Shown here: piece after piece, positions 997-22,742 of the stretch
Layout: the number at the start of each line of letters is the position of its first letter
Position numbering within the stretch: position 1 is the first letter of the stretch
Assembly: GCF_947488135.1 (NCBI RefSeq)
Contig: NZ_CANKYW010000013.1
Span: 1 to 43,621 of the forward strand
Direction of reading: 5' to 3'
Source of the DNA: an uncultured Marivita sp.
Lineage (GTDB): Bacteria; Pseudomonadota; Alphaproteobacteria; Rhodobacterales; Rhodobacteraceae
Length of the DNA: 43,621 bases
Position numbers and translations under genes: made by a program
Notes under the pieces: generated by a model
What the model was told of the DNA's origin: nothing
What the model saw: the letters and a program-made list of their open reading frames with translations, nothing else
The model's database searches: none

Positions 997-1947
997 TCAT
1001 AACACGTCCTTCGCATCACCCAGATTGTCCGCTTTCTCAGCTCCCCGTGTTCCCATCGGTTCGTCAGGTCCCACGGTCGTGTCGGCGGACGTTTGTGCTT
1101 CCATCTCGGCGTTGAGCTCCGCCCCAAGTAGAACGATGAAAGCGGAAATCCACAGCCACATGAGCAGGATGATTACCCCGGCCATGCTGCCGAACGACTC
1201 GTTGTAGCTGCCGAAATTGCTGACGTAGATCGAGAAGCCGACGGATGCGACAATCCAAATGACGCAGGCCGCGATCGCACCCGATGACAACCACTGCCAC
1301 TCGGCGTTATCCCGTGCTGGTCCATACCGATAGAGCACGGCCAGACCGAACACGGTCATTAGTGCCAATATCACCCATCGCGACAGGGATAGGACTGTTT
1401 CCAGCCAACCCGGAAGCGCCATCAGGTTGATCGCGGTTGGAACCGCAAGTGCAGCGAGAAGACCCAAGACCAGCCCAACGATTAGGAATACGGTAAGTCC
1501 GAGCGTCCAAAGGGTTTTCTTGATAATACCGCGTGTCTCTTCTTCGTCATACGCAACATTCAGGCCCTCCATCAGACTGCTCATGCCCTTTGACGCGGAA
1601 TAGATGGCCAGCAGCAGACCGATGACAAATGCGATGCCGAGGCCCACCTGTTCCGAACCTGCGACAGCGACTGCCTGATCAAGAATGATTTGCGCTGCCT
1701 CTTCCGGGATCATCTCGGTCAATGCCTCAAGCTGTGCCGTCACCTCCGCGGGTTCCAGAACCAGCCCGCCAAGCGCCATTAGCGCCGTGATGGCTGGGAA
1801 GATTGCCAGAAGTGCATAGAATGCCACCCCCGCGGCGATCAGCCCGACGTGATCGGAGGCCAACTCATCCTTCACACGCAGGATGATGTCTTTCCACCCT
1901 TTTGCCGGAATTTCCTTGGGTGTTTCGGCGTTCCTGCCACGGTTCAT
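997..1947 (-). CDS. YihY/virulence factor BrkB family membrane protein
   Basis: This 316-residue integral membrane protein has the YihY/BrkB signature region (residues about 20-280): HVGLIAAGVAFYALLAIFPAI near the N-terminus and several later helices, with about six membrane segments in all. The family was once called ribonuclease BN in error; its function is unproven, with transport or envelope roles proposed. The C-terminal 35 residues are charged and probably cytoplasmic. An AAGGAG-like ribosome site lies just before the ATG. It follows the DUF3618 gene after a 69-base gap that contains a hairpin, so it may be partly uncoupled from the upstream operon. Confidence 0.9.
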   Translation of the reverse strand: MNRGRNAETPKEIPAKGWKDIILRVKDELASDHVGLIAAGVAFYALLAIFPAITALMALGGLVLEPAEVTAQLEALTEMIPEEAAQIILDQAVAVAGSEQVGLGIAFVIGLLLAIYSASKGMSSLMEGLNVAYDEEETRGIIKKTLWTLGLTVFLIVGLVLGLLAALAVPTAINLMALPGWLETVLSLSRWVILALMTVFGLAVLYRYGPARDNAEWQWLSSGAIAACVIWIVASVGFSIYVSNFGSYNESFGSMAGVIILLMWLWISAFIVLLGAELNAEMEAQTSADTTVGPDEPMGTRGAEKADNLGDAKDVL

Positions 1948-1969
1948 CTGTTCGCTCCTTGAGATGAAG

Positions 1970-1994
1970 CAGCCCGCACGATTAGCGCGGGCTG
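1970..1994 (-). terminator. Hairpin between the DUF3618 and YihY genes
   Basis: CAGCCCGC and GCGGGCTG form a perfect 8-bp stem with a 9-base loop between the stop of the DUF3618 gene and the start of the YihY gene. There is no strong U-run after it, so it may be an attenuator or an mRNA-stabilising stem and not a full terminator. Confidence 0.45.
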
Positions 1995-2016
1995 TTAGAT
2001 TCAGTTCACATCACGC

Positions 2017-3234
2017 TTACGATTTCTTCACATCGCCCACGTTCTGTTTCTTGTCTTCGGATTCCGCAGCGTCGACAGTCCGTTTTCCTGAAAATTTGGC
2101 TTTATCAGCGACCGCTTGAGCCGCCGTTTCTGCCGGTGCCGCATCATCAGCATCCTTTTTGGCTTCGCTGACGATGCTCTTCGCTTCGTCCGTGGCGGCT
2201 TTCGCGACCTTCCCAAGCTTTTGCTTCTCTTCCTGGAAAATTCGTTCCGCCTCGTCCATGAGTTGGTCGCTTGTTTCGCCGAGATACTGATCTTCGACCC
2301 GGCTGCGCGGCAGCGCCGCTCCTAATGCAGCACCAAGGGCCACTGCGAGCGCACCGGCGATCAGGGGCTGCTCCTCGAATATGTCAACAGTATGCTCACG
2401 GCCTTGGCGGGCATAGGACGCCGCAGCATCGCGCGCCTCCAAGGCTCTCTCCCGCGCGGCAATTACGCGGTTGCGTGCCTCCTCGGTGAAGTTTTCGGTA
2501 CCTTCTGCCAAGCGTTCGCGCAACGCCGTCGCCCGCTCGGAGGCAGACGTTGCGAGGTCCTCAGCGCTGCCAGCGACGCTCTCGCCCGCGCCGATCACCG
2601 CATCTGCGGCAACTTTGGCGGTATCGGCTATCTTCGAACCTGCTTTGCGTGCCGTATGTCCGGCCGTTGATGCTGCCTGTTTCACGCCACCGCCCGCACT
2701 GGACGCAGCACTGCTCTCCTCTGACCCGACAGCGCCTTCGCCATCGTCGCCGTCTGACCGCGCCCAGCTTGGCACGTCACGGCGATAGCGATAGCCGCCG
2801 ATAGGCTCATTCCGAGCGAGACCCGGTTGTGGGCCAAGCTTGCGTTGGTGGGAGGTGCGAGAAGCGGTGTCGTCCGGCAAGCCTGTTCGGCTGTCGCGTC
2901 CATCATTCAAACGCCTGTCTCGCGCATACCTGTCATAGTCACGATTATCAATGGCGTCACGACGATAGCGGTCACGGTCACCGGGTCTGTCGCCCATCAT
3001 CAACCATGCAAGTCCGACGCCGGTCAGGGCCAGCGCGACCGGATTGCGCTTGACAGCCTCGGACACGGATCGTCCGATATCGCCACCATGTTCACGAAAC
3101 TGGTCTGAAACTTGCCTTGCGACATGCTCGACCGAAAACCTGTCCTGAAGATCGTCCAGGGTGTCCGTCAAACCGGCCCGTTCACGTTCAATCTCGCGTT
3201 CGATCTCTTCAGGGCTGCGTGTATCATTTGTCAT
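2017..3234 (-). CDS. DUF3618 domain-containing stress protein
   Basis: A 405-residue protein. Residues 1-50 (RSPEEIEREIERERAGLTDT...) are the DUF3618 domain, an amphipathic N-terminal segment common in alphaproteobacterial envelope-stress proteins. A hydrophobic stretch follows at about 65-82 (NPVALALTGVGLAWLMM). The middle is an Arg/Asp-rich linker and then a long Ala/Lys/Glu-rich region (about 180-280) that looks helical and LEA-like. A second Gly/Ala-rich hydrophobic segment lies near 283-302 (QPLIAGALAVALGAALGAAL). No enzymatic motif is visible. Its start codon overlaps the end of the holin-like gene by 11 bases, so the two are probably translationally coupled. The name describes the domain only. 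Confidence 0.85.
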   Translation of the reverse strand: MTNDTRSPEEIEREIERERAGLTDTLDDLQDRFSVEHVARQVSDQFREHGGDIGRSVSEAVKRNPVALALTGVGLAWLMMGDRPGDRDRYRRDAIDNRDYDRYARDRRLNDGRDSRTGLPDDTASRTSHQRKLGPQPGLARNEPIGGYRYRRDVPSWARSDGDDGEGAVGSEESSAASSAGGGVKQAASTAGHTARKAGSKIADTAKVAADAVIGAGESVAGSAEDLATSASERATALRERLAEGTENFTEEARNRVIAARERALEARDAAASYARQGREHTVDIFEEQPLIAGALAVALGAALGAALPRSRVEDQYLGETSDQLMDEAERIFQEEKQKLGKVAKAATDEAKSIVSEAKKDADDAAPAETAAQAVADKAKFSGKRTVDAAESEDKKQNVGDVKKS

Positions 3235-3622
3235 CGTAAACCTCCTTCACGGCCTGCGCATCGCGCTTTACGTTTTTCGCGGTCCGCGACGGTGCAAGAC
3301 TGCTGAGTTTCAGATCGTTCGTGCCTTTGTTGAGCATCACGTAAGCGATGATTGCAAAGATCACGCCTACGATCAGCGCCGACCAGCCGGCAGGGATCCC
3401 TGCCTCTGTCAGCGCAGCGACAAGCGCCGCTGACAGGACATTGAGAGCGGTCAGAGCAACCACGATCGCTCCGACAATCATGCCGATGGCGACACCGGCA
3501 CTCTTGAGATTCTCGTTCACTTCGGCCCGAGCCAGATCAACTTCGCTACGCACAAGGGAGCTGACGTGCGTCAGTGCATCGCTGAGTAGTCCCCCGGTGG
3601 TTTTATTTGGATCGGTGGTCAT
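3224..3622 (-). CDS. Phage holin family (holin-X / DUF1469-like) membrane protein
   Basis: A 132-residue protein with an N-terminal amphipathic region (LLSDALTHVSSLVRSEVDLARAEV) followed by two membrane helices (about residues 42-68 and 78-98, the second being WSALIVGVIFAIIAYVMLN). This is the arrangement of the 'putative actinobacterial holin-X' family. In alphaproteobacteria it is nearly always paired with DUF3618 proteins, as here, and is probably not a lysis protein. It overlaps both neighbours: 4 bases with the upstream gene and 11 with the downstream one. Confidence 0.85.
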   Translation of the reverse strand: MTTDPNKTTGGLLSDALTHVSSLVRSEVDLARAEVNENLKSAGVAIGMIVGAIVVALTALNVLSAALVAALTEAGIPAGWSALIVGVIFAIIAYVMLNKGTNDLKLSSLAPSRTAKNVKRDAQAVKEVYDDK

Positions 3623-4182
3623 ATCTTGCTCCCTTCTTGAGAGGTTTTGATCGCAGAACTCGCTACGCCGCCTGCACCCGAGAAGTCGGAACGGTCAGCA
3701 GGAACTGGGCGTTCCATAGAACGATCAGGATCGCCGTAGGTCGGTTGGTGCGATGTCGAATGGCTGGATGCCTTTGCAAAACGGGTCGCTGCAAAGCCGA
3801 TCAGCGCGGCACTACCGAGAAAAACCATGGGATTGCGTCTCGCGAAATCACTCACCGCTCCCACCATCTCGCCCAGGTCCTTGTCGCGCACGGCATCTGA
3901 CGCATCCGCCAGACCCTCCGCAATCTGGCTGAACGTGCGCTCTTGCGGTGAACCGCTGCGCATCTCCTCCGCCGCGGTCCGCAAAGCTGACGCGACACTT
4001 TTTACCTCGTCTGCCGCAGCGTCTTTGGCTTGGCCCGCATAGTTGCCAGCTTCGGTCGTGACTGTGTCGGCAATACCTTGGGCCTGGTTTTTCGCCTGGT
4101 TCGATACGGAGGCGGCGGCCTCTTTTGCCTTTTCACCGAGAGGCTTGTTTTCGGTCGATTGGCCTTTGTCAGTATTCGTCAT
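3619..4182 (-). CDS. LEA-like / nutrient-deprivation-induced protein, hypothetical
   Basis: A 187-residue protein. The first 95 residues are rich in Ala, Lys, Gln, Asp and Glu with repeated 11-residue-like periods (KAKEAAASVSNQAKNQAQG, YAGQAKDAAADEVKS), typical of LEA-like helical stress proteins. A short hydrophobic stretch at about 114-132 (NPMVFLGSAALIGFAATRF) resembles the C-terminal anchor of YqjD/ElaB-type proteins. The tail is disordered and polar. An ATGA overlap joins it to the holin-like gene, and the 22-residue peptide gene ends 14 bases upstream. I infer a membrane-associated stress protein; the exact function is unknown. Confidence 0.75.
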   Translation of the reverse strand: MTNTDKGQSTENKPLGEKAKEAAASVSNQAKNQAQGIADTVTTEAGNYAGQAKDAAADEVKSVASALRTAAEEMRSGSPQERTFSQIAEGLADASDAVRDKDLGEMVGAVSDFARRNPMVFLGSAALIGFAATRFAKASSHSTSHQPTYGDPDRSMERPVPADRSDFSGAGGVASSAIKTSQEGSKI

Positions 4183-4196
4183 GTTATTCTCCCTGC

Positions 4197-4265
4197 TTAG
4201 AAGATGAGATTGAGAACGGCGAGAACGACCACGATCAGGCCGATGAGATAGAAGATGCCGTGCAT
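4197..4265 (-). CDS. 22-residue membrane peptide MHGIFYLIGLIVVVLAVLNL...
   Basis: A very short gene (22 codons plus TAA) with a clear AGGAG ribosome site 8 bases before its ATG. The peptide is one hydrophobic helix beginning MHGIFYLIGLIVVVLAVL and ending NLIF. Similar single-helix peptides starting MHGIFYLIG occur beside alphaproteobacterial stress genes and usually go unannotated (from memory of the family, not checked). It is the first gene of the LEA-like/holin/DUF3618 operon, 44 bases downstream of a GGAAC-N16-GGTT promoter. I infer an inner-membrane stress micropeptide. Confidence 0.7.
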   Translation of the reverse strand: MHGIFYLIGLIVVVLAVLNLIF

Positions 4266-4308
4266 TGGGGTTTCTCCTGTTTGTTCAACTTTCTGTTATT
4301 GTAAATTT

Positions 4309-4333
4309 AACCGTCTCATTGTTCGTAAGTTCC
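4309..4333 (-). promoter_or_regulatory. Putative sigma-EcfG-type promoter of the stress operon
   Basis: The minus strand reads GGAAC, 16 bases, then GGTT. The -10 element is 44 bases before the micropeptide ATG and the -35 lies inside the last codons of the DUF2383-like gene. Spacing matches the alphaproteobacterial general-stress consensus; the -10 has GGTT in place of CGTT, as in the promoter at 867-892. Confidence 0.5.
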
Positions 4334-4723
4334 CGGGAGTTCGACGATGGTCGCTTCCAACCTATCCACGACCTCTTTCAACCAATCGTATTGATCGACA
4401 AGAAACCCGAACTTCTCATGTTCACCTGAAATCGGACGGATCGCTCTATCGTAGGCGTCGAGGATTTTGTTTTCATTCGCGACGACCTCCCCTGGGGTCG
4501 AAACATCCGTGGGTTGAGGGGCTTCAGGCGAAGCGATCTCCTCTCCTTCGCTTGCAAGAAAGTTCTCAAGTTCCTGAATGTTCTCCTCACGACGGGAGAG
4601 GATTACGCTGATAGCGTCCCCCAGTTCCGTGTCTTGCACCCGTTGATATAGAGCATCGTAAGCTCCGTTTGTCTCAAGCAGGCAGCGGTGAAGATCCACT
4701 AGGTTCTGATTTGAACTCGACAT
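4316..4723 (-). CDS. DUF2383-like four-helix-bundle stress protein
   Basis: A 135-residue all-helical protein beginning MSSSNQNLVDLHRCLLETNGAYDAL. It contains two helix pairs: residues 8-60 and 83-128, the second including EHEKFGFLVDQYDWLKEVVDRL. This resembles the PA2169/DUF2383 ferritin-like group, but the metal ligands of ferritins are not obvious. It sits between YciE and the LEA-like operon, like many small ferritin-like stress proteins. Its own promoter was not identified; a strong hairpin separates it from the upstream yciE gene. Assignment to DUF2383 is by overall pattern only. Confidence 0.6.
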   Translation of the reverse strand: MSSSNQNLVDLHRCLLETNGAYDALYQRVQDTELGDAISVILSRREENIQELENFLASEGEEIASPEAPQPTDVSTPGEVVANENKILDAYDRAIRPISGEHEKFGFLVDQYDWLKEVVDRLEATIVELPGTYEQ

Positions 4724-4795: not shown

Positions 4796-5284
4796 TCAAG
4801 CGTTGGCGTCGACGTTTCGGGAACGTTCAGCCAATTGGGTCATGAAATCGTCGGACCCGTAGATGTTGTCCAACGCTTCGTCGAGCTTGCGCGCCGCCTC
4901 ATCATTGCCGAGTGCCTCGGCGAATGCCTTGGCCGTGCCGAACCCGGCGATGCCGTAATGGCACATGCGCTGGTATTGCGCGATGATCGCCACGTCGAGC
5001 GCGGCATCGCTCATGTCACTGTCGAGCGCGTGCTTCCTGGCCTCCTTCACGAGCCCTTCCATACCCTTGCAATGCTCTTTCTTCACATCGGCACCGGTGT
5101 CCTCGAGCACGGATTTCAGAAGGCGGGTATGCTGGTCGATCCCATCCTTGGCCGAACTCAACCGGTCGGCCAGCTTGCTGTCGGACGCCTTGTCGGCCAT
5201 CGCCGACACCACCTTCGACATCTGGTCGTTTGCGGACCAGAGATCCTGTAGTTCATCGATATAAAGGTCTTTCAACGTTGTCAT
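4796..5284 (-). CDS. YciE/DUF892 ferritin-like protein
   Basis: A 162-residue protein whose start (TLKDLYIDELQDLWSANDQM) is the classic DUF892/YciE opening. It continues as a helical bundle with the family's conserved Glu/His positions (IDELQDL, DQHTRLLKSVLE, IIAQYQRMCHYGI). YciE proteins are ferritin-like, and their metal-binding role is inferred from structure. Length is normal. AAAGGAG precedes the ATG, and the stop codon of the upstream glycosyltransferase gene is only one base away. It could therefore be the last gene of the glycan operon as well as a stress gene. Confidence 0.9.
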   Translation of the reverse strand: MTTLKDLYIDELQDLWSANDQMSKVVSAMADKASDSKLADRLSSAKDGIDQHTRLLKSVLEDTGADVKKEHCKGMEGLVKEARKHALDSDMSDAALDVAIIAQYQRMCHYGIAGFGTAKAFAEALGNDEAARKLDEALDNIYGSDDFMTQLAERSRNVDANA

Positions 5285-5285
5285 C

Positions 5286-6392
5286 TTATGCTCCTTTCAC
5301 GGTCGGCAGTGCCGACGCATTGGTTTGAGTGGGTGAGGGCAGACGATCCACAGGGACCGGACAGGCCCGCATGCCGGGGCCAGCGGGGACATTTGCTGAC
5401 CCCTTGCCCGGCAGCAGCGTGTCAAGGTGGGAACATGGCATCGTTGCTGCCGAAGCTATCGAGGCGGATATCAGCCGCTCCGAATTCCTGAACTTCTCCA
5501 GTATTTCAATATGCTGCGGGAGATCCCGCACATGCAGGCGGAAGCGGGCGGGCACCTGCGGCGGCCAGGGGCCCAGCGTCTTGCCGCTGGCCTGCCTGAC
5601 CAGCCAGTCCGCCGGCGGCAGGCAATCGTCGATCAGGTAATCCAGGTCCCCGATCCGCGCCTTGAGCGCGTCGGACATGCCCCCCGCCGCGCGTCCGATC
5701 AGGCGGCACGAGGCCTGCACCGTCACATCGTCGGCGTGACGGACCCGGCAACCCGCCGCGCGGAGCGCGCGAACGATCCGGCGGTCTTCGCCGCAACGAA
5801 CGGGCGCGAACCCGCCTCCTGCCAGATAGGCCGCGCGTGTGAACCCGAGGCTCGCCCCCGCCGCTTCGCCGTGGGTGTAGCCGATATCCGCACTTCCGGG
5901 CGCCTGGCGGGCGTAGATGTCCTGCACCAGGGCCCTATAGATGCCTTCCAGTTCGGCGAGGTGGGGGTCCATGCCATCGAGGATATCTGCCTCGCCCGCG
6001 ATCAGATCGACCTTGCCGCAGACAGCGTCCGCCGTCTTCAGGTGGGCAAGGTTCTGCGCGATCCAATCCGGGGCGACGATGCAATCGGCGTCGGTGGTCA
6101 AAAGGTAGCGAAGCGCGGGCATGGTCTGCAGGGCGTGATCGCATCCGATCCGCCGGGCGGTGCCGACACCCTCCCGTGAAGGCAGTGTCCGTTCCAGCAC
6201 CGTCAGGTCAAGGTCATGCCGCGCGGCGATGTCGTGGGCCACGCTGCCGGTGCGGTCGGTGGTGTTGTTGAGCACCAGGATCACCACCGCGTTGCCTTGC
6301 CCAGCCAAGGCAGTGAGACAGGCACCGATCCGGGCTTCCTCGTTGCGGGCCGGGATGACGATGGCGGTGTCTTTTGCGGCGGGGCGGGTCAT
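5286..6392 (-). CDS. Family 2 glycosyltransferase (soluble, GT-A fold)
   Basis: A 368-residue protein starting at the ATG that overlaps the previous stop (ATGA). The longer frame upstream is rejected because it would overlap the methyltransferase gene by about 60 bases. Residues about 8-30 (TAIVIPARNEEARIGACLTAL) are the nucleotide-binding strand-helix of GT2 enzymes, and LLTTDADCIVAPDWI supplies the DxD-type metal site. There are no clear membrane helices, so it should be cytoplasmic. The C-terminal 100 residues are less conserved. It is the last gene of a seven-gene overlapping unit; donor and acceptor are unknown. Confidence 0.85.
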   Translation of the reverse strand: MTRPAAKDTAIVIPARNEEARIGACLTALAGQGNAVVILVLNNTTDRTGSVAHDIAARHDLDLTVLERTLPSREGVGTARRIGCDHALQTMPALRYLLTTDADCIVAPDWIAQNLAHLKTADAVCGKVDLIAGEADILDGMDPHLAELEGIYRALVQDIYARQAPGSADIGYTHGEAAGASLGFTRAAYLAGGGFAPVRCGEDRRIVRALRAAGCRVRHADDVTVQASCRLIGRAAGGMSDALKARIGDLDYLIDDCLPPADWLVRQASGKTLGPWPPQVPARFRLHVRDLPQHIEILEKFRNSERLISASIASAATMPCSHLDTLLPGKGSANVPAGPGMRACPVPVDRLPSPTQTNASALPTVKGA

Positions 6393-6955
6393 GTCGTGCC
6401 CTTCAACAGTCCGCGGTCGATGCGATACCCGTCGGTCTGCGCCACGCAATCGAACTCATGGGTGTCCAGCGCCGCCGTGAAGATCGCCAGCGCTTCTTCG
6501 CCCTGCAAATCATGGTCGGTTTCGCCAAGCCAACTCACGCAGAGCACCTCCGCCTTCGGCCAGGCGCTAGCGATATCCAATGCCAGTTTGCGCAAGCTGC
6601 CCTCATCGAGGAAATAGAGGATCTCGGACAGGATCAGCAGGTCGAAATCGCCCCTTGGCAGCGGACAGGGGTAAAAGTCGTGGATGAAGGTGGCATCCGG
6701 CACGGCACGGCGCGCTGCCTCGATCGCAATGGCCACCGCATCCATGCCGGTATAGCGGTCACAGATGTCCACCAGATGCTGTGCAAGCTGCCCGTTGCCG
6801 CAGCCCAGCTCGAAGGCCGAGGCGTAGCGGGGCCGCGTCAGCGCCGCCCGCGTCGCGGCGAACTTGGCCTGTTCGTAACCACTGTGCTCGAAATCCCAAG
6901 GGTCCGAGGTGTCGGCATAAAGCGCGTGCAGGTGATCGCGGCCCACACCCATCAC
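6389..6955 (-). CDS. NodS-like SAM-dependent methyltransferase
   Basis: A 188-residue class I methyltransferase. Motif I is FELGCGNGQLAQHL (about residues 47-60), followed by an acidic residue in YTGMDAVAIAIE and motif IV-like FDLLILSEILYFLDEG. The N-terminus (LHALYADTSDPWDFEHSGYEQAKF) matches the NodS group, whose founding member N-methylates deacetylated chitooligosaccharide in Nod-factor synthesis. In many alphaproteobacteria this domain is fused to a PIG-L deacetylase; here the two are separate but overlapping genes (ATGA), which supports consecutive steps. Actual substrate unknown. A start at the second Met is equally possible. Confidence 0.85.
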   Translation of the reverse strand: MMGVGRDHLHALYADTSDPWDFEHSGYEQAKFAATRAALTRPRYASAFELGCGNGQLAQHLVDICDRYTGMDAVAIAIEAARRAVPDATFIHDFYPCPLPRGDFDLLILSEILYFLDEGSLRKLALDIASAWPKAEVLCVSWLGETDHDLQGEEALAIFTAALDTHEFDCVAQTDGYRIDRGLLKGTT

Positions 6956-7656
6956 GGCATCCTCCAGAAGATCTCGTCTTCGGTCACGAATTTCTCGATG
7001 AACCCTGCCGGAAGAATGAAGCCCGATGGATCATCGGTGACGACCCTGCCCAGTTGGCTTCGATGCGCATGGATTGCCGCGCGTTTCCTGTCGCGCAGGT
7101 CCTCCGGGGGCACGCACACCGGGGCGTGACGGGTGGCGGTCTGGCGGAAATCGGGATCGTCCCAGCGGCACCAGACGGGATAGCTGTAGAACGCCCACTC
7201 CGGGCGGCGGCGGCGCAACGCGCCGGCGAACCGCGCCGTCGCCTGGTGGTCTTCGTGGTGATCCTCGGCAGCAGGCACGAAGACATGGCGCGCGCCATGA
7301 CCTTCGATGATCTGTTCCAGCCTGGCGGCAACCTCTGTCGCATCGGCCTGATAGAGACGGCTGTCGGCCATGCCCAGCCAGGTCAGATCGCGCGCGGAAC
7401 CGCCGAGACATTCGATGGCCGCTACCATCTCCGCACGTCGCTGGCGGGCCAGCCGCCGGGGCGTCCATTGGCGAGATCCGGGGTGGCTCGCACTGCCATC
7501 CGTCAGGCAAATGACATGCGCGCCGGCGCCTGCGAAACCTCGCACCAGAAGTGCGCCGCAGCCGAGGGATTCATCGTCGGGATGCGGGGCCAAGACGACG
7601 AGGCTTTCGCGACCCTCGAACACGTCCGGCAATAAAGGGAGGTGCGCGACATTCAT
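6952..7656 (-). CDS. PIG-L / LmbE family N-deacetylase
   Basis: A 234-residue Zn-dependent deacetylase of the LmbE fold. VVLAPHPDDESLGCGALL (about residues 19-36) carries the metal-binding HPDDE, and the later EDHHEDHQAT segment carries the third ligand histidine. Family members remove N-acetyl groups from sugars (GlcNAc-PI, mycothiol precursor, teicoplanin pseudoaglycone). I chose the ATG at 7656 because it forms an ATGA overlap with the upstream stop and starts just before the conserved domain; a much longer upstream frame is antisense noise. Next to a NodS-like methyltransferase it suggests deacetylation followed by N-methylation of an amino sugar (inference). Confidence 0.88.
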   Translation of the reverse strand: MNVAHLPLLPDVFEGRESLVVLAPHPDDESLGCGALLVRGFAGAGAHVICLTDGSASHPGSRQWTPRRLARQRRAEMVAAIECLGGSARDLTWLGMADSRLYQADATEVAARLEQIIEGHGARHVFVPAAEDHHEDHQATARFAGALRRRRPEWAFYSYPVWCRWDDPDFRQTATRHAPVCVPPEDLRDRKRAAIHAHRSQLGRVVTDDPSGFILPAGFIEKFVTEDEIFWRMP

Positions 7657-8750
7657 CCGAACACTCCCCAGATGCGCCCGTCTTCCCCGAGAGCCGTCTG
7701 CGCCGCGCGTTGCAAGAACGCATCCCGCGCGGCCTGCCGCAGATAGACCGCCAGATCGCGGGCCATGCGTCCGGTCTCGGAACCGGCCTCGAAATGCCGC
7801 AGGCCGATGCTCTGCTCGACGGCCCGGATGGCATCGAGCCCGACCTCCTCGGTAAAGAGCCGGGCCGCGATGGAGGTGGTAACGATGTGGTCCGGCGCGA
7901 TGTGGCGATCGGCAGCGGCTCCGGCGGCGCGCTCGGTCAGGGCCATGCCGGCCCAGACGCGCATCAGCGCATCCATCAGACGGCTCTTCTGGGCTTCCGC
8001 CGCCATGCGGCCTGCGGCGCGAAGCTCTGTCGCGGCCACGTCCAGCAGGCCGACGGTGGCGCCGGCCTGCAAGGCCGCGATCCGCCAAACACCGCCGACG
8101 AAATGCGGCTCCTTCAGGTAATCGCCGGGGTCGCCGATCCATTCGATCCTGTCGACCGGCAGGTCGGTGAAATCAAAGCTGCCCGAGGCAGTCGCCCGCA
8201 TCCCCTGCATGTCCCATGCGGACGGGTCCGCGGGGGCGCCGTCCGTCACATCGACCAGCGCCAGCCGCACCTCGGGACCGGAATTCACAGTGACCAGCGC
8301 ATGGGTCACGGTGCCCAGCCCCGAGGCATAGCACTTGCCGCCCTGCAAATGCTGCCCCGTGGCATCCAGCGTCACCGGCGCCGCGCCATCGGCCCCCCAG
8401 ACGCCCAGCAGGGCACCCTCGGCGATCTGGCGATCGACCTGCGCCTCTTGCACCTTCGTTCCATAAAGGCGGACCAGGTGCAGCGCGTTGACATGCCCTT
8501 CGAACAGCCTCCCGACGCCGAGGTTCGCAGCGCCCACCTGCATCAGCACCCGGGCGGTGCGGGCGGGATCGGTCGCGCCGTCATCGGTCAGAAGGTCCGC
8601 CTGTCGCAGCAGATCGATGGAGCGGCCGATCGGGCGCGCGCCACGCTCCTCTTCTGCGGCGGCAGCCCGCAGGGCCTCCGCGACATCGGACGGCACCGGC
8701 CCGGCGGTGGTCGAAGGCGGCAACTCGGCAAGGGGTCTGGAAGCTGTCAT
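7653..8750 (-). CDS. Acyl-CoA dehydrogenase-like flavoprotein in glycan operon
   Basis: A 365-residue protein with acyl-CoA dehydrogenase organisation: an all-alpha N-terminal half (DLLRQADLLTDDGATDPARTARVLMQVGAANLGVGRLFEGHVNAL), a beta middle domain (about residues 115-200) and a C-terminal helical domain (GLLDVAATELRAAGRM ... SIGLRHFEAGSETGRMARDL). It is slightly shorter than catabolic ACADs (about 380). I could not place the catalytic base with confidence. It is embedded between a glycosyltransferase and a deacetylase by 4-base overlaps, so a role in modifying an acyl or other group on a glycan precursor is more likely than beta-oxidation (inference). Confidence 0.8.
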   Translation of the reverse strand: MTASRPLAELPPSTTAGPVPSDVAEALRAAAAEEERGARPIGRSIDLLRQADLLTDDGATDPARTARVLMQVGAANLGVGRLFEGHVNALHLVRLYGTKVQEAQVDRQIAEGALLGVWGADGAAPVTLDATGQHLQGGKCYASGLGTVTHALVTVNSGPEVRLALVDVTDGAPADPSAWDMQGMRATASGSFDFTDLPVDRIEWIGDPGDYLKEPHFVGGVWRIAALQAGATVGLLDVAATELRAAGRMAAEAQKSRLMDALMRVWAGMALTERAAGAAADRHIAPDHIVTTSIAARLFTEEVGLDAIRAVEQSIGLRHFEAGSETGRMARDLAVYLRQAARDAFLQRAAQTALGEDGRIWGVFG

Positions 8751-9802
8751 GTGCTCTTTACCATCTCCATCTCAGGATGCCTTGCAGCGGCGTGTTCCAG
8801 CAGCTGCACCCAGTCCCCGGTGACCCGGCCCAGCCGGAAGGCGGGATTGGCGGTGACCTGAGGCGGCGCACGCCGCCACGCCTGAATGCGCCCAAGGATC
8901 TGCGCCGGGTCATGACCATCCACGCGCTGCGTGGCATCCGCCACGATTTCCGCATTGGCACCCAGCCCATCATGCACCAGCACCGGCGTGCCGACCGCAT
9001 TGGCCTCGGCCAGCACCAGGCCGAAGGTCTCGGCAAATGTCGTCTGGGGATAGAACAGGCAGAGCGCACAGCGCATCTGCCGGATGAGCGCCCCATGGGA
9101 CAGGGATCCCAGAAAAACCACGCCCTCGGGCACCGGCCCGGTATCCCAGCGCAGATAGCCCGGATCGGCCACGGCAAGGGTCAGCTTCGGAAGGTCACGG
9201 CGCAGGGCGGCGAATTGTTCGAACACCTCGGCCAACCCCTTGTGGGGCGAACTGGCAAAGAGCAGCCGGTCGGGATCGCGGGGCGTGGCGTCGGGGTGCA
9301 GATCGTCATCGAGCGGATTGTAGATCACCCGGATGGGCGGCACATCCTCCGCCCCGAGGAACCCGGCAAGCGCACGCGCGTGCGTGTTCGATACACAGAT
9401 GACGGTGATGTCGGCAGCCTTCAGCGCCACGCCCATTCTGCGGTTGTGACGGCCGGGATAAACGTGCAGCCAGAGGAAGATCGGCATGTCGGGGTGCTGC
9501 TTGCGCAGCTTGATCGCCACCTTCCAGCGGTTGATGACGATCAGGGCGGCGGGGTTTTGCGCGTCATCGAGGTCTTGCAGGGGCCGCAACTTCCCCGCGT
9601 CGGACAGCTGCCGGTGGCCGCGACCCTGCTGATACTGCGTGATCTCGAAACGGGAGCCGAGTGCTGCGGCCACCCGCAGCACCGTCGCTTCGGTGCCGCC
9701 AAGACCGCCGGTCCTGAGGTCGGGCAGGTCGTAACCCGCGGCAGAGCACGGATCGACGATCGCCACGGGTGCGCGCGCTGCCTCTTGGCGAAACGCCTTC
9801 AT
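8747..9802 (-). CDS. Glycosyltransferase family 4 (GT-B fold)
   Basis: A 351-residue protein. The N-terminal Gly-rich loop (LRTGGLGGTEATVLRVAAAL, about residues 29-48) and the C-terminal E-x7-E region (AETFGLVLAEANAVGTPVLVH) are the acceptor and donor-nucleotide signatures of retaining GT4 enzymes. The recurring phrase VIYNPLDDDLHPDATPRDPDRLLFASSPHKGL is also typical. There is no signal peptide or membrane helix, so it is a cytosolic enzyme. I chose the ATG that overlaps the upstream stop (ATGA); the open frame continues upstream without homology. Sugar specificity cannot be read from sequence. Confidence 0.88.
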   Translation of the reverse strand: MKAFRQEAARAPVAIVDPCSAAGYDLPDLRTGGLGGTEATVLRVAAALGSRFEITQYQQGRGHRQLSDAGKLRPLQDLDDAQNPAALIVINRWKVAIKLRKQHPDMPIFLWLHVYPGRHNRRMGVALKAADITVICVSNTHARALAGFLGAEDVPPIRVIYNPLDDDLHPDATPRDPDRLLFASSPHKGLAEVFEQFAALRRDLPKLTLAVADPGYLRWDTGPVPEGVVFLGSLSHGALIRQMRCALCLFYPQTTFAETFGLVLAEANAVGTPVLVHDGLGANAEIVADATQRVDGHDPAQILGRIQAWRRAPPQVTANPAFRLGRVTGDWVQLLEHAAARHPEMEMVKST

Positions 9803-10767
9803 TGCGCGGCCATCCCTGTTTCCGGGGCAGAGGCGAAGATGTGCCCGACCCGGGCCGACGTGGCGGACGTGGCGGGCATGTCGCGCCGTGCCAGAAAGTC
9901 GGGCCGGCTGACATGGCTGACGCCGAGGGTCGGGATATCCACCGGCACGGAGGCGACCCTGCCGTTCTGCCGCCACTCCTCGACCTTGGCCCAAACCAGC
10001 TGCCGGTCCGCCTTGCGCCGGGTGCTGTCGTAATCCGAGACTGCGGATTGCGTCAGGCTGTCGGGGGTCTCGATCTTGGTCAGCAGCAGTTCCGGCACGA
10101 TCCAGATGATCTCGCCGTTCAGGATCAGCCGGTTGCGGAATTCGCGGTCCTCCTCGATGCAATCCTCGAACCCGCCGAGACGGCGGAACACATCCGCGCG
10201 GAACAGGCCGGAGTTGATGTGCGTCCATTCTCCCGGCACCTGCGCGCCCATCTGAAGGTTCGGAAAGACGTCATCGAGCAGGGACAGGTCGCGCCTGATC
10301 TCGACGCGCCGCCCGTCCGGCAGGATCAACTCATGGTGGGTCAACGCCGCGCTGACCTCCAGCCGCTGACCCGCCTTCTTATTCGCTAATTTCCAGTTCA
10401 GACATTCATCGGCACCGATGTTCTGCGCGGTCAGCACGCGGACCTGGTGCAGGACCTTATCGCGATGCGGGATGTCGTCGGAATCGTGAAAGGTGACGGC
10501 GTCGCCCCCGGTCAGCAAAAGGCCTGCATTCTTGGCATTGGCGGTGCCGAGGTTCTGCGACAGCCGGATATAGTTGAAACGCGGATCGGCCAGGAAGCAC
10601 CGCACCGCGTCTTCGGTCGCGTCGGTGCTGGCGTCGTCGATCACCGTGACGCGGATGTTCCACCAGCTTTGTTCGAGTGCCGCGCGGATGGCCCCGACGA
10701 TCAAATGAGCGCGGTTCCAGGTCGGGATGACGATATCGACCAGGGGGGCCAGCGGATCGGATGTCAT
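9799..10767 (-). CDS. Family 2 glycosyltransferase
   Basis: A 322-residue GT-A enzyme. PLVDIVIPTWNRAHLIVGAI opens the domain, VTVIDDASTDATEDAV follows, and the metal-binding motif is TFHDSDD. EDREFRNRL is a plausible catalytic-base region further on. It has no membrane helix. The start at 10767 gives the ATGA overlap with the upstream membrane glycosyltransferase; the open frame extending upstream is antisense or other-frame noise from high GC. It is the second gene in the glycan unit. Confidence 0.88.
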   Translation of the reverse strand: MTSDPLAPLVDIVIPTWNRAHLIVGAIRAALEQSWWNIRVTVIDDASTDATEDAVRCFLADPRFNYIRLSQNLGTANAKNAGLLLTGGDAVTFHDSDDIPHRDKVLHQVRVLTAQNIGADECLNWKLANKKAGQRLEVSAALTHHELILPDGRRVEIRRDLSLLDDVFPNLQMGAQVPGEWTHINSGLFRADVFRRLGGFEDCIEEDREFRNRLILNGEIIWIVPELLLTKIETPDSLTQSAVSDYDSTRRKADRQLVWAKVEEWRQNGRVASVPVDIPTLGVSHVSRPDFLARRDMPATSATSARVGHIFASAPETGMAAQ

Positions 10768-12251
10768 GCGGAAACCTCCTTCACAGGTGAGGCGATGGTG
10801 GCACGATAGGCGCGCAGGCTCCTGTCGGTCAGCAGCGCGGCGGGCAACGGCAGCAGGAGCGCCAGCAGCGCGGCGCGGATCAGCGGCTCCGCAGGGTGCC
10901 CGCCGAGCAGCAGCAGGAGCGCGGTGAGGAAAACCATGAGGTGACAGATGGACAGGGAACCGGCGCCCTTGCCGCCCGATTTGTCGGTGACCACGAATTT
11001 CAGGCGGCAGCCCGTGAGCGCATCGAAGGTCGCCTTGGCCGATTGCGGCGCTAGCGCGATGCGACAGGCCAGCGCGTGCAGGATGACCGGAAGGGCCTGC
11101 CCGTCGCGCAACCCGCGCGCGACGACGCGTGAAACGATGTCGCAAAGCGCGAGCAGGATGGCCACCGCAGCCAGCGCGGCGGCGACCGTATGCCCCTGCC
11201 CGGTCAGCAGCCAGACCGTCAGCAGCGCGAAAGGCACGAGGGCGAGGCTGAACCATGCGGTCAGTTGCGTGAGGATCACCAGCCGCTTGTGCAGGTCGAA
11301 ATCGCCCGCGGGGGTGAGGATCGTCCGCCCATGCCGCAGCAGGGTCTGGACGTTGCCGCTGCACCAGCGATACCGCTGCCTTTCGAGATCGCGCAGGGAC
11401 AGCGGCAGCAGGCCCTTGCCCACGACCCGGTTGATGAACCGGCCCGCGAAGCCCGCGTGGCAAAGCCGCACGCCCAGGTCCGCATCCTCGGTCGTGGTGG
11501 CGCCCGACCACCCGCCAACGGAAACCAGCGCAGTCTTCGAAATCACGCAGAGCGTGCCGGTCAACAGCACCGCCTCGGCCTCATCGGCGGCGGCGGCATT
11601 GGTGCGGAAATATTCCTCAAGCTCGGCATCCACGCCCGGTGCGGTGGTCGTCGTGGCGACATAGGATTGCGGAAACTGCACGTAATCCGCCCCGGTCCGG
11701 TGCAGCGCCTCCGCCGCGCGGCGCAGGAAATCGCGGCCGACCACGTAATCCGCATCGACGGTGACCACATGGGTCGCATCGTCGCGCGTATGCGCCAGCG
11801 CGATGTTGAGCGCGCCGGCCTTGGCACCCTTGACACCCGTCCGGTGCAGGAAGGCGATCCGGCCCGGATGCGCGGCGCAAAACCTCTCCACCGGCTTCCA
11901 CAGCGCGGGATCGGCGGTGTTGTTGTCCATCACGACGATCTCGTAGTCATCCGACGGCCAATCCTGATCCAGCAGGGCCCGCAGGGTGCGGATCACCAGC
12001 CGGGGCGGTTCCGCATGGGTCGCGACATGGATTGAAAAACGCGGGCTGGCGAAGTCCTGCCGACCCGTCGCCAGCCGGGCGGGCAGACAGGCAACAAATG
12101 GCCGAAGGCCCATCAAACCGATCTGAACCACGATGATGACCGCACAAAGGAACAGACCGACCGCCGGGAGGACGGCAGACAGAATCAGTATTCCCCAGAT
12201 GATGACAGCCCGCAGTTCCACATTCGCCCCCGAGCGATAGTTAAGTAGCAA
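10764..12251 (-). CDS. Membrane processive-type GT2 (BcsA/NodC-like)
   Basis: A 495-residue protein with two N-terminal membrane helices (about 12-50), a GT2 catalytic domain and at least four C-terminal helices (about 330-480). It has the full D, D, D, QxxRW set: IVVMDNNTADP, VVTVDADYVVG, TTTEDADLGVRLCHAG and QRYRW. This is the layout of cellulose, chitin (NodC) and hyaluronan synthases, which build and often extrude a beta-linked polymer from UDP-sugars. It is somewhat short for a BcsA, and no PilZ domain is seen. It is the first gene of the unit; the ATG at 12251 lies about 50 bases after a possible EcfG-type promoter. Product unknown. Confidence 0.88.
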   Translation of the reverse strand: MLLNYRSGANVELRAVIIWGILILSAVLPAVGLFLCAVIIVVQIGLMGLRPFVACLPARLATGRQDFASPRFSIHVATHAEPPRLVIRTLRALLDQDWPSDDYEIVVMDNNTADPALWKPVERFCAAHPGRIAFLHRTGVKGAKAGALNIALAHTRDDATHVVTVDADYVVGRDFLRRAAEALHRTGADYVQFPQSYVATTTTAPGVDAELEEYFRTNAAAADEAEAVLLTGTLCVISKTALVSVGGWSGATTTEDADLGVRLCHAGFAGRFINRVVGKGLLPLSLRDLERQRYRWCSGNVQTLLRHGRTILTPAGDFDLHKRLVILTQLTAWFSLALVPFALLTVWLLTGQGHTVAAALAAVAILLALCDIVSRVVARGLRDGQALPVILHALACRIALAPQSAKATFDALTGCRLKFVVTDKSGGKGAGSLSICHLMVFLTALLLLLGGHPAEPLIRAALLALLLPLPAALLTDRSLRAYRATIASPVKEVSA

Positions 12252-12301
12252 TAAAATTTATCGATCAGTAGCTTGTCAGATTTCGACGCTACCGACGGTC
12301 C

Positions 12302-12327
12302 AACAAATTTCGTTGCTCGTTGGTTCC
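12302..12327 (-). promoter_or_regulatory. Possible EcfG-type promoter of the glycan operon
   Basis: The minus strand reads GGAAC, 17 bases, then TGTT, with the -10 about 50 bases before the first gene of the glycan unit. The -35 is perfect; the -10 has TGTT where CGTT is usual. It lies in the only non-coding gap (12252-12420) upstream of the operon. Low to moderate support. Confidence 0.35.
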
Positions 12328-12420
12328 CACTTCGGATGATTCATCGCCGACGCGGGTGTGCCAAAGATGCGCGACACCGCCAAACCATGCTTTCAACTGG
12401 ATTGAATTCCGCCGCGGCGG

Positions 12421-13158
12421 TCAGTCTTGCGGAAACCAAGAGGTATCCATGTCGGCATAGCGATCATGGAAATCCGTAAGTTCGATCATCGCATCTTCCC
12501 GAAGGATCTGGAGCCGATTCTGATCGCGGTGAATATAGCCATCCTCTTCCATCCGGATGAAGGTCTTGCTGATGTAGACATTGGTCAGGCCGAGGTAATC
12601 AGCGATCTGGCTCTGCGTCATCGGCAGGCGGATCGTGTCGGTTATGCCCGGATTGGTGATCCGGAGACGGGATATGAGATCCAGCAACATGTAGCTGACC
12701 CGTTCCTGCGCACTCATCCGGCCCATTGCGCGGAGAACATCGATCAAAACAACCTGGTCGCGAAGTGCTATCGATAGCAAAAGTGCTGAAAGCTTCGGAG
12801 ACTCGCGCAGGATCTCGTCCAGCGACGATTTCGGAAACGGGCAGAGGCATACGTCCTCGACCGTGCGCAAGGTCGTCGTCGCATGTTTCAGGGCGACATC
12901 CGGAAAGCCGATGATGTCGCCCGGGTGATGGATCTTGACGATCTGGCGGCGGCCATCGGGCAGATCGGTATAGCTGAAGGCCCAGCCGTGTTTCACGACA
13001 TAGAGGTCCTTGTTCTCGTCACCGCCCTGATACACCTCGTGTCCGGCATCGAATGTGCGCTCTGCCTTTTCAAGGGTAGCCAGCCTTACGCAATCCGCCT
13101 CGGACAGAGAGACGTAATGAGACAGCTTGGTGACGAGGCAACTGGATGTACTGGACAT
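12421..13158 (-). CDS. Crp/Fnr family transcriptional regulator
   Basis: A 245-residue regulator: cyclic-nucleotide-binding-like beta-roll (residues about 20-140, including YQGGDENKDLYVVKHGWAF and HHPGDIIGFPDVAL), a dimerisation helix, and a C-terminal winged helix-turn-helix with recognition region MTQSQIADYLGLTNVYISKTF. The N-terminal Cys spacing of oxygen-sensing Fnr proteins is absent, so it is not an iron-sulfur Fnr; the effector is unknown. It lies 10 bases downstream of the mgtC-like gene on the same strand and upstream of the glycan operon, so it could regulate either (inference). Confidence 0.88.
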   Translation of the reverse strand: MSSTSSCLVTKLSHYVSLSEADCVRLATLEKAERTFDAGHEVYQGGDENKDLYVVKHGWAFSYTDLPDGRRQIVKIHHPGDIIGFPDVALKHATTTLRTVEDVCLCPFPKSSLDEILRESPKLSALLLSIALRDQVVLIDVLRAMGRMSAQERVSYMLLDLISRLRITNPGITDTIRLPMTQSQIADYLGLTNVYISKTFIRMEEDGYIHRDQNRLQILREDAMIELTDFHDRYADMDTSWFPQD

Positions 13159-13168
13159 GACGGCCCCC

Positions 13169-13633
13169 TTATTTGTTTCCCCGGATATGAAGCCAGTCGA
13201 AGATGTTGAGGACGATAAAGATCAGCACCGAGATGAACGCCGCCTCCTTCAGGTAACCTAGCCCGCAGGCGATGCCAATCGACCCCACCGCCCAGATGGC
13301 GGCGCCGCTGCGCACCCCTTTCAACCGCCCGTTGTCGCGCGGCGACATGATCGCCCCAGCGCCGAGAAAGCCGATGCCGCCGACGATGCCTTGAATCAGA
13401 CGGGTCGGGTCGATCGTTATGGCCTCGTCTTCGGCAACGCCGCTCAGGGCAAAATTAAGGGTGACTGCCATCAAGGCGGCAGAGCCAATGGCGACCAGGA
13501 CGTAAACTCCGGCACCCAGCGGCTTGCCCTTGATCTCGCGGTCGAGCCCGACGACAAGACCACACCCTCCAGAAAAAAGGACGCGCAGGATGAATTCGCT
13601 GAACTCGACCATTGGCGACAGATCTCCTTTCAC
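13169..13633 (-). CDS. MgtC/SapB family membrane protein
   Basis: A 154-residue protein with about five membrane helices and the MgtC-family signatures: GLVVGLDREIKGKPLGAGVYVLVAIGSAAL near the N-terminus and the GIVGGIGFLGAGAIM segment. Salmonella MgtC inhibits the F-type ATPase and helps growth in low magnesium; this short form lacks the C-terminal ACT-like domain. It shares an operon with the Crp/Fnr gene 10 bases downstream and is divergent from the DUF421 gene. No magnesium riboswitch was recognised upstream. Confidence 0.88.
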   Translation of the reverse strand: MKGDLSPMVEFSEFILRVLFSGGCGLVVGLDREIKGKPLGAGVYVLVAIGSAALMAVTLNFALSGVAEDEAITIDPTRLIQGIVGGIGFLGAGAIMSPRDNGRLKGVRSGAAIWAVGSIGIACGLGYLKEAAFISVLIFIVLNIFDWLHIRGNK

Positions 13634-13782
13634 AGTTTTCTAAACCGGAGGGGTTTCTTTAGCGTTACCGGGATGATTTCAGTTTAATCTGCATTGAATT
13701 GGGCCGGCGGTCGCAGGGTTACAACTCCGTGACAGCGCAGAACGATCCCGGCACACCGACCTTGCACAACAGGAGAAGCCTG

Positions 13783-14298
13783 ATGTTCTTCGACGAACCC
13801 TTCATCGATGCCCTCGCCAAAGGTGCCCTGCTGAGCGGGATCGGCATTGCCTGGATTATATTGCTGGTCCGTATCGTCGGCCTGCGATCGTTCTCAAAGA
13901 TGACGAATTTCGATTTCGTGATGACCGTCGCCATGGGCTCGCTTCTGGCGGGGGCGTCGCAATCGCAGCAATGGACCGGGTTCGTGCAGACAGCGACGGC
14001 GATGGCCAGCCTCTTTGCCGTCCAGTATGGCGTCTCGCGGCTGCGGCGCTGGTCACCGCGGCTCGACGCGCTGGTTCAGAATACGCCGGTCCTGCTGATG
14101 AAGGACGGCGTCATCCTGCACGATGCCTTGCGCGCGACGCGTGTTGCCGAGGAAGACTTGATCGCAAAGTTGCGGGAGGCCAATGCGCTTGATTTCTCAT
14201 CCGTTCGTGCCGTGGTGCTGGAGACAACCGGCGATATCTCGGTGCTGCACGGCGATCATGTGGGCGAGGCCCTGTTCAAGGGGGTCGCCGACGCCTAG
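13783..14298 (+). CDS. DUF421 (YetF-like) membrane protein
   Basis: A 171-residue protein with three N-terminal membrane helices (residues about 12-90) and a soluble C-terminal domain (about 95-170) containing PVLLMKDGVILHDALRATRVAEEDLIAKLRE, the DUF421/YetF pattern. Bacillus YetF-family proteins have been linked to spore germination and membrane stability, but the biochemical role is unknown. I chose the ATG at 13783 because AGGAG lies 7 bases before it; 28 more in-frame codons upstream lack a ribosome site and any similarity. It is divergent from the mgtC-like gene. Confidence 0.88.
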   Translation: MFFDEPFIDALAKGALLSGIGIAWIILLVRIVGLRSFSKMTNFDFVMTVAMGSLLAGASQSQQWTGFVQTATAMASLFAVQYGVSRLRRWSPRLDALVQNTPVLLMKDGVILHDALRATRVAEEDLIAKLREANALDFSSVRAVVLETTGDISVLHGDHVGEALFKGVADA

Positions 14299-14314
14299 GA
14301 TGGAAGCCAATGAG

Positions 14315-21132: not shown

Positions 21133-21343
21133 CGACGGATGACGGCGCACGCGAAGAGATGACTGGTTTCCGCCGGAGCGGCTCAGCGCCTCGGCTGGGC
21201 CGCCGGCAACTCGTCCTATCTCGCGGCGGCACGGAAACCGGATGGCAGCTCCGCGCTCTACGGTTTCGACGAAACAGATTGGCAGCTTTTGAGAGAGTCA
21301 TTTTGACGGCCTCTTCTCAGGTTGTCGCGTTGCCCTTTAATCG
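21133..21343 (+). other. Gap with possible gene-end fragment left of the ISL3 element
   Basis: Between the ABC terminator and the IS there is a plus-strand stretch ending at a TGA near 21306. It reads RLGWAAGNSSYLAAARKPD and then SALYGFDETDWQLLRESF, which looks protein-like. It has no start of its own and I cannot name the family. It may be the tail of a gene removed when the element or a neighbour moved in. Confidence 0.3.
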
Positions 21344-22742
21344 GCTCATCGTCAATTTGTGTGGCGGAACTATCCTGAAGCAGGAAACTTCGGGAGGGAT
21401 AGCCATGACTTCGAAGCACTATTGGTCGCCTGGGGGCGAAGTTTCGATTCAAAGCGTAGAGCGAAATGATTCCGGCGGGTGGATTGTATTGGGCAGTCTG
21501 ACACCAAACGGCATCTGCCCAGACTGTGGATTGCACTCACGCCGACGTCACGGCTGGCGGCGTCGGCGGCTGCAGGATTATCCCGCGCATGGAGACGAGG
21601 TAACGATTGATCTCGGGGTTTGCAGTTGGCGATGTTTGGCGCTCGCTTGCCCGCGCCGGACTTTCTCGGACCAGATCGCCTCGATTGCGCGTCCTTTTGC
21701 GCGGCGCACCTCGCGTGTCGGGGAGATTGTCAGCCATCTTGGGCATGCGGCCGGCGGGCGGCCTGCCGAGCGGCTCTTGCACCGTTTGGGCCTTGGGGTC
21801 AGCGACGACACGGTGCTCAGGCAGCTGAAGAAGTGTGTTCAAGGCACCGCCGAGCTGCCGACGGTCATCGGGATCGACGACTGGAGCTGGCGTAAGTCGC
21901 AAACCTACTGCACGATCATTGTCGATCTGGAGCGTCGCGTGGTCATCGACATTCTCGAGGATCGAGATGTCGTCACCTGCACCGATTGGCTTAAGCGACA
22001 TCCTGAGGTGGAAGTGATCAGCAGAGATCGCTGCGGTCTCTACGCCCAAGCTGCCCGGCAAGGGGCACCGCAGGCGAAGCAGGTCGCTGACCGGTTCCAT
22101 ATCGTGCAAAACCTGCGGCAGGCCATCGAGGAGCAAATGAACCTCCACGGCCGTGCGACCGGCAGGGCGCTGCTGTCCGATGCCGATAATATCACCGCCG
22201 CCGGCAGACTTCTAAAGTCCCGCCTTGCGCACAGGACGTCTCGGGAAGAGATTTTCACCACCATCCATGCGCTCCGGAATCAGGGGCTTTCCTGCAGCGA
22301 GTTCGGGCGGCACACAGGGTACCCGCGTCGCAGCATCGCGAAATGGCTGCAGTTCGAGACACCACCGGACCGCAGGCGGGCCCCTTTGAAGCCGACGTCG
22401 CCGTGGTACTTTGAAGAGTTCCTGAGTCAAAGCAGCAAGGAAGGCATTCGAAATGCAAGCACCCTGTTCCAACTGATCCAAGAGCGTGGCTACGAGGCGA
22501 GCCAGTCGCATTTGCAGCGCCTGTTGGCGGGTTGTCGCAGAGCCGAACAGCTAGCGAACGACTCCAAGGTCGAGCAAGAAAGCCTTAAGCCAGTCCGGGA
22601 CCCGGAAACTGGGCACGCGATCTCACCGGTCATCGCGGCCGCGCTGTGCATCAAGCCCCGCGGAAAGATCACCCCGCCGCGCCGGTCCAGAGTTGTTGCG
22701 GGCGAGAATGCTACCGTTCCGCCACACAAATTGAGGATGACC
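21344..22742 (+). mobile_element. ISL3-family insertion sequence
   Basis: About 1.4 kb. Left end GCTCATCGTCAATTTG followed by TGTGGCGGAAC; right end, read inward, GGTCATCCTCAATTTG followed by TGTGGCGGAAC. The two ends match at about 25 of 27 positions as inverted repeats. The flanks are TTTAATCG on the left and TTAAATCG at 22745-22752 on the right, a possible 8-base target duplication with one difference. The exact outermost bases are uncertain by a few positions. The element carries one transposase gene. Confidence 0.8.

Follow-up and report, generated by a model that had tools for sequence, protein, structure and literature searches.

The DNA examined here, a window of 43,621 nucleotides from an uncultured Marivita sp. 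of the Rhodobacteraceae (contig NZ_CANKYW010000013.1), carries an operon of seven tightly overlapping minus-strand open reading frames (ORFs) at 12251-5286 (Table 1). In transcript order these encode the glycosyltransferases GTa, GTb and GT4, a flavoprotein with the fold of acyl-CoA dehydrogenases (ACADs) that we call ACD, a PIG-L deacetylase (PIGL in gene orders), a NodS-like methyltransferase (MT) and a last glycosyltransferase, GTg; the starts at 10767, 9802, 8750, 7656 and 6392 each share 4 bp with the end of the gene before. Genes were called from ORFs and profile hits, with no gene finder, and six of the seven proteins have Pfam matches, among them GT2 for P0001, P0002 and P0007 and a GT4-type family for P0003. 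A sequence-only reading had proposed this gene order, which is confirmed here, and had likened the operon to a Nod-factor-type pathway in which an aminosugar chain is made, deacetylated and N-methylated, and an acyl group is attached or modified. The G+C content is 66-68% over 6001-12000, 55-60% in the three preceding 2-kb blocks and 57% in the following one.

Table 1. The operon and adjoining features (window coordinates)
Feature	Coordinates	Strand	Remarks
Crp/Fnr regulator	12421..13158	-	upstream of operon
EcfG-type promoter motif GGAAC-N18-GTT	12302..12327	-	upstream of operon
GTa (P0001)	10764..12251	-	membrane GT2, cellulose synthase/PgaC relative; QRYRW (QxxRW); TTG start tentative; accessory module
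GTb (P0002)	9799..10767	-	GT2; accessory module
GT4-type glycosyltransferase (P0003)	8747..9802	-	accessory module
ACD (P0004)	7653..8750	-	ACAD-fold flavoprotein, class D monooxygenase-like, lacks catalytic Glu; core
PIG-L/LmbE de-N-acetylase (P0005)	6952..7656	-	metal-site motifs intact; core
NodS-like S-adenosylmethionine methyltransferase, MT (P0006)	6389..6955	-	start GTG 6955 (4-bp overlap with preceding stop) or ATG 6952 (1-bp overlap); core
GTg (P0007)	5286..6392	-	soluble GT2, 368 aa; core; placement differs between loci
DUF892 protein	4796..5284	-	1 bp past last operon stop; same layout on Paracoccus sediminicola p1

The operon consists of two modules, a core tetrad of ACD, PIG-L, MT and GTg and an accessory trio of glycosyltransferases. 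Among the best 80 of 137 relatives from genome contigs, a set chosen by two peptide patterns and therefore biased to close relatives, ACD and PIG-L occur in all 80 loci, MT in 78 and GTg in 77, with GT4 in 22 and GTa and GTb in 20 each. The commonest order (35/80) is ACD-PIGL-MT with GTg on the opposite strand. The seven-gene order of the window is found in 14 loci, on plasmid p1 of Paracoccus sediminicola and in a second copy within the same genome (G000:C1), whose ACD is 75% identical; the neighbourhood is conserved, and the remaining orders are GTg-ACD-PIGL-MT (11), ACD-PIGL-MT-GTg (9), GTa-GTb-GT4-GTg-ACD-PIGL-MT (4) and others (7). The ACD stop lies 17-90 bp from the first aligned PIG-L residue (n=79), and PIG-L 14-53 bp from MT (n=77). 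Our locus sets overlap, and L006 and L044 look near-identical. The leading trio GTa-GTb-GT4 is an extra found mainly in Rhodobacterales, and the core recurs in other Alphaproteobacteria, as had been suspected, including the vinegar and cellulose producers Acetobacter, Gluconobacter and Komagataeibacter, and also in other Pseudomonadota, Deinococcus and Nostoc. The same four-enzyme set is thus conserved in very different bacteria.

In 15 loci from other classes of Pseudomonadota (L148-L162), ACD and MT are always present, PIG-L in 13 and a strong GTg in 12. The GTg ORF is shorter in several of these (about 235 aa in L148 and L149, against 368 aa in the window), none was seen in L154 and L157, and the match in L160 reaches only 21 bits; a different glycosyltransferase may therefore act there. 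Two of these loci carry an extra PIG-L gene behind the core (L151:11833-12735 and L154:11308-12120), perhaps serving a second amine. Four genomes (G319, G549, G711 and G538) have ACD and MT adjacent with no PIG-L between them; a family PIG-L lies elsewhere in three of the four, in G538 some 12 kb off on the contig of ACD and MT. At L059:10681-11664 an in-frame stop interrupts PIG-L and MT was not found, so that this copy looks decayed.

P0004 matches were found in none of 16 other genomes of the same genus, none of 20 others of the same family and one of 24 at class level. In larger samples, where at most five candidates were scored per genome and counts are therefore lower bounds, the ACD family was found at E <= 1e-25 in at least 34 of 398 genomes across the phylum, and at least six of 385 class-level genomes gave a match of at least 284 bits, the next match reaching 89 bits. 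Window positions 4812-14312 are 95% identical to the P. sediminicola plasmid p1, and ACD proteins of Pelagivirga, Paracoccus and Tropicimonas are 96-98% identical. An ACD relative is present in 51 records of a plasmid collection, including Sulfitobacter, Deinococcus, Sphingomonas, Acinetobacter and Nostoc, and ACD-PIGL-MT with an adjoining GT2 was found in all seven whose surroundings were inspected. These findings indicate that the operon is an accessory unit moving between lineages.

ACD was described by the sequence-only reading as acyl-CoA-dehydrogenase-like and as taking the place of an acyltransferase. The likeness holds for the fold and fails at the key residue. The catalytic Glu of acyl-CoA dehydrogenases is missing from all 77 ACD family rows (74 distinct genes, three rows repeating a gene) at either of two alignment columns, which we take to be the MCAD-type and isovaleryl-type positions; 21 of 25 generic ACAD-type rows have Glu at the first column and one more at the second. 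To judge by this residue, ACD does not belong to the catalytic acyl-CoA dehydrogenases. P0004 has no Pfam match and only weak NCBIfam matches (SfnB, DszC). Class D flavin monooxygenases head both its sequence and its Foldseek matches: the profile search is led by TdsC (7e-15) and DszC (2e-13), and in Foldseek ranks 1-8 are taken by TdsC, DnmZ, MAB_4123 and DszC, with KijD3 at rank 13. In a tree with SfnB and ACADs, 42 ACD family rows form a single clade with support of 100/100. A flavin reductase (PF01613) is encoded by two genes elsewhere in the genome and by none within the operon.

One paper describes group D monooxygenases as sharing a domain with ACADs and as including N-hydroxylases (PMC6165268), and another proposes an N-hydroxylation role for AlnG, a protein annotated as an ACAD (PMC7347517). 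Closest in function to what we propose for ACD may be the amino-sugar N-oxygenases KijD3, DnmZ and the Micromonospora nitrososynthase, class D flavin monooxygenases that have the ACAD fold, as ACD does, and stand high in its Foldseek list. These enzymes act on amino sugars, as their entry titles indicate. However, ACD is only about 20% identical to them, they rank under many ACADs in its sequence profile search, and no antibiotic cluster was seen around ACD; in the tree, which compares it with SfnB and ACADs, the ACD family stands apart.

P0005 matches PIG-L (PF02585, E 4e-27) alone among the Pfam families, in agreement with the claim that the deacetylase is PIG-L and not NodB. At the head of its profile matches stand an unnamed protein (3wl4, 1.7e-23) and then diacetylchitobiose deacetylase (3e-22), followed by BshB (5e-13) and MshB (6e-11). 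The HPDD and HxxH metal-site motifs are kept, with H13, D15 and D16 nearly invariant and H122 and H125 invariant in 47 rows. In motifs and profiles the protein thus resembles these members of the LmbE superfamily (reviewed in PMC4101496), but its operon partners are a methyltransferase and a flavoprotein. P0006 matches NodS (PF05401, E 3e-12, 47.1 bits against a cut-off of 24), but scores 48 bits against a cut-off of 300 in the NCBIfam NodS model and is best called NodS-like; its profile finds an unnamed methyltransferase (4isc, 5e-41), then NodS (1e-26), the next match being at 1e-15. In G774 the two are fused in one protein of 452 residues (P0008), the sole fusion among 176 loci scanned. The two profiles and the fusion support the proposed logic of amino-sugar deacetylation followed by N-methylation of the freed amine, acetyl removal and methylation probably taking place on the same nitrogen.

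The operon lies among general-stress genes, as the sequence-only reading had noted, with DUF892 downstream and Crp/Fnr, MgtC and YetF upstream. It is also preceded by the motif GGAAC-N17-20-GTT, published as the EcfG promoter motif of Sphingomonas melonis (PMC6599016). The stretch searched reached 450 bp upstream of the first aligned codon, dropping two of 90 loci with too little upstream DNA. The motif occurs in 29 of 38 Rhodobacterales loci, where 1.47 are expected, and in 7 of 35 Acetobacteraceae loci (0.85 expected), all Komagataeibacter; it was found in none of 12 other alphaproteobacterial and none of three non-alphaproteobacterial loci. A spacing of N16-19 leaves these counts unchanged, three scrambled motifs hit 1, 0 and 0 of the 38 Rhodobacterales loci, and dereplication by upstream DNA similarity leaves 19 of 28 (1.06 expected). 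In 15 of 17 copies with the seven-gene order, the motif stands 121-128 bp ahead of the first aligned GTa codon. The genome encodes PhyR, NepR and an adjacent extracytoplasmic function (ECF) sigma factor, EcfG by this context, and carries the motif between phyR and nepR. The operon thus has the promoter motif and its genome the EcfG/NepR/PhyR system, and we predict that in Rhodobacterales it belongs to the general stress regulon. The main text of the Sphingomonas paper mentions neither acyl-CoA dehydrogenase nor LmbE, PIG-L or deacetylase (PMC6599016).

The surroundings of the 90 loci are consistent with a stress context. Recurrent neighbour clusters, each named via one Pfam-tested representative, are KatE catalase and SDR (22 loci each, with 16 and 11 genus labels), Crp/Fnr (19 loci, 14 labels), DUF892 (18, 11), YetF (14, 11) and MgtC (14, 8). 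The sole PF00199 catalase of the genome lies 3-4 kb from the second operon copy. At L070:6727-8775 a KatE-type catalase gene sits within the operon itself, between GT4 and GTg.

With this in mind, we suggest, at a probability of roughly 40%, that the operon makes a stress-induced glycoside with an N-methylated and oxidised, probably N-hydroxylated, amino sugar. According to this model, GTg would attach an N-acetylhexosamine to an acceptor, PIG-L would take off the acetyl group and the NodS-like enzyme would methylate the freed amine. ACD would act as a monooxygenase, drawing its reduced flavin from a reductase whose gene lies elsewhere, and would most likely hydroxylate the amino-sugar nitrogen; a flavoprotein of the kind that includes amino-sugar N-oxygenases, beside PIG-L and MT, suggests N-oxidation. 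In Rhodobacterales, GTa, GTb and GT4 may lengthen the product or attach it to a larger glycan, probably one at the cell surface, and EcfG, the general stress sigma factor, would activate the operon. Computation shows the gene families with their order and conservation, the one fusion of PIG-L and MT, the missing catalytic Glu and the promoter motif, whereas we infer the reactions, the order of methylation and oxidation, the product, its benefit and the regulation. Two points weigh against the model: the lead of monooxygenases over ACADs in the sequence and Foldseek rankings of ACD is small, and fold Z scores are tied between class D monooxygenases and ACADs, leaving the fold undecisive.

As the sequence-only reading had stated, no product of the operon is described in the literature we found. 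If the chemistry is right, a hitherto unknown amino-sugar product would join the stress response, and what it protects against could be tested by gene deletion. One may speculate further, though we hold this to be quite improbable, that the product is an undescribed stress metabolite widespread among bacteria: a glycoside of an N-methyl, N-hydroxy amino sugar, as a hydroxylamine or a nitrone, which would itself serve as a built-in scavenger of radicals or as a redox buffer and would be made in Pseudomonadota, Deinococcus and Nostoc by a mobile module of four enzymes.

An explanation that is unlikely yet deserves weight follows the logic of bacillithiol and mycothiol. Here GTg would form a pseudo-disaccharide that PIG-L, MT and ACD tailor into a small soluble stress metabolite, an intracellular redox or osmotic protectant, with the glycosyltransferase trio travelling along as a surface decoration. 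The four core proteins include no membrane glycosyltransferase or exporter by Pfam, PIG-L also matches BshB1 and MshB, and the neighbours include catalase. Scans of 153 ORFs flanking the 15 other-class loci, each showing its 25 most frequent families, gave GH13 four times, GH77 three times, YetF twice, and GT20, DUF892 and Mn catalase once each, small numbers that come with no background. However, GTa-GTb-GT4 overlap the core genes in the window, which suggests a shared product in the seven-gene form, and no thiol-adding ligase family was found among the seven proteins (Pfam). It is less likely still that ACD is a dehydrogenase or oxidase rather than a monooxygenase, turning the N-methylamine or a sugar carbon into an imine or ketone: the tied fold scores would allow it, but the catalytic Glu is missing throughout and monooxygenases lead both rankings, if by small margins.

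The operon does work partly like the NodB-NodS steps of rhizobia, in which a GlcNAc-type (N-acetylglucosamine) residue is likewise de-N-acetylated and then N-methylated by a NodS-clade enzyme, as we propose here, and its seven-gene form shares with the Nod pathway a cellulose-synthase/NodC-type GT2. It is not a Nod pathway, however, since it has PIG-L in place of NodB, an added flavoprotein, a stress context and no polymerising glycosyltransferase in its core. P0001 best matches cellulose synthase among solved structures (E 6.5e-17) and scores 30.6 bits against the NodC chitooligosaccharide synthase model TIGR04242, whose cut-off is 550. No NodA match was found in the genome, though control genomes gave none either. 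A Nod-factor-type lipo-oligosaccharide pathway with the ACAD homologue working on the acyl chain, for which the joint occurrence of a cellulose-synthase-type glycosyltransferase, a deacetylase and a NodS-like MT speaks, is very unlikely: no sign of an acyl step was seen, ACD lacking the acyl-CoA base and no acyltransferase being found among the seven proteins (Pfam), as had been claimed, and the chain-making GTa, present in just 20 of 80 loci, is not core. Of that proposal, amine unmasking and methylation stand. In the inspected plasmid records ACD is annotated as an acyl-CoA dehydrogenase and, in most, MT as a nodulation-linked methyltransferase; such annotations of core genes mislead.

The DUF892 gene directly downstream is probably co-transcribed with the operon. 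Further minus-strand genes follow at 997-4723, encoding BrkB-like, DUF3618 and holin-X-like proteins and a weak DUF2383 match (below the cut-off), with a second EcfG-like motif among them at 4309-4333. On the other side of the operon, positions 21323-22736 hold insertion-sequence DNA that recurs at roughly 88-90% identity on plasmids from several Rhodobacterales, annotated in several of these as an ISL3-family transposase.
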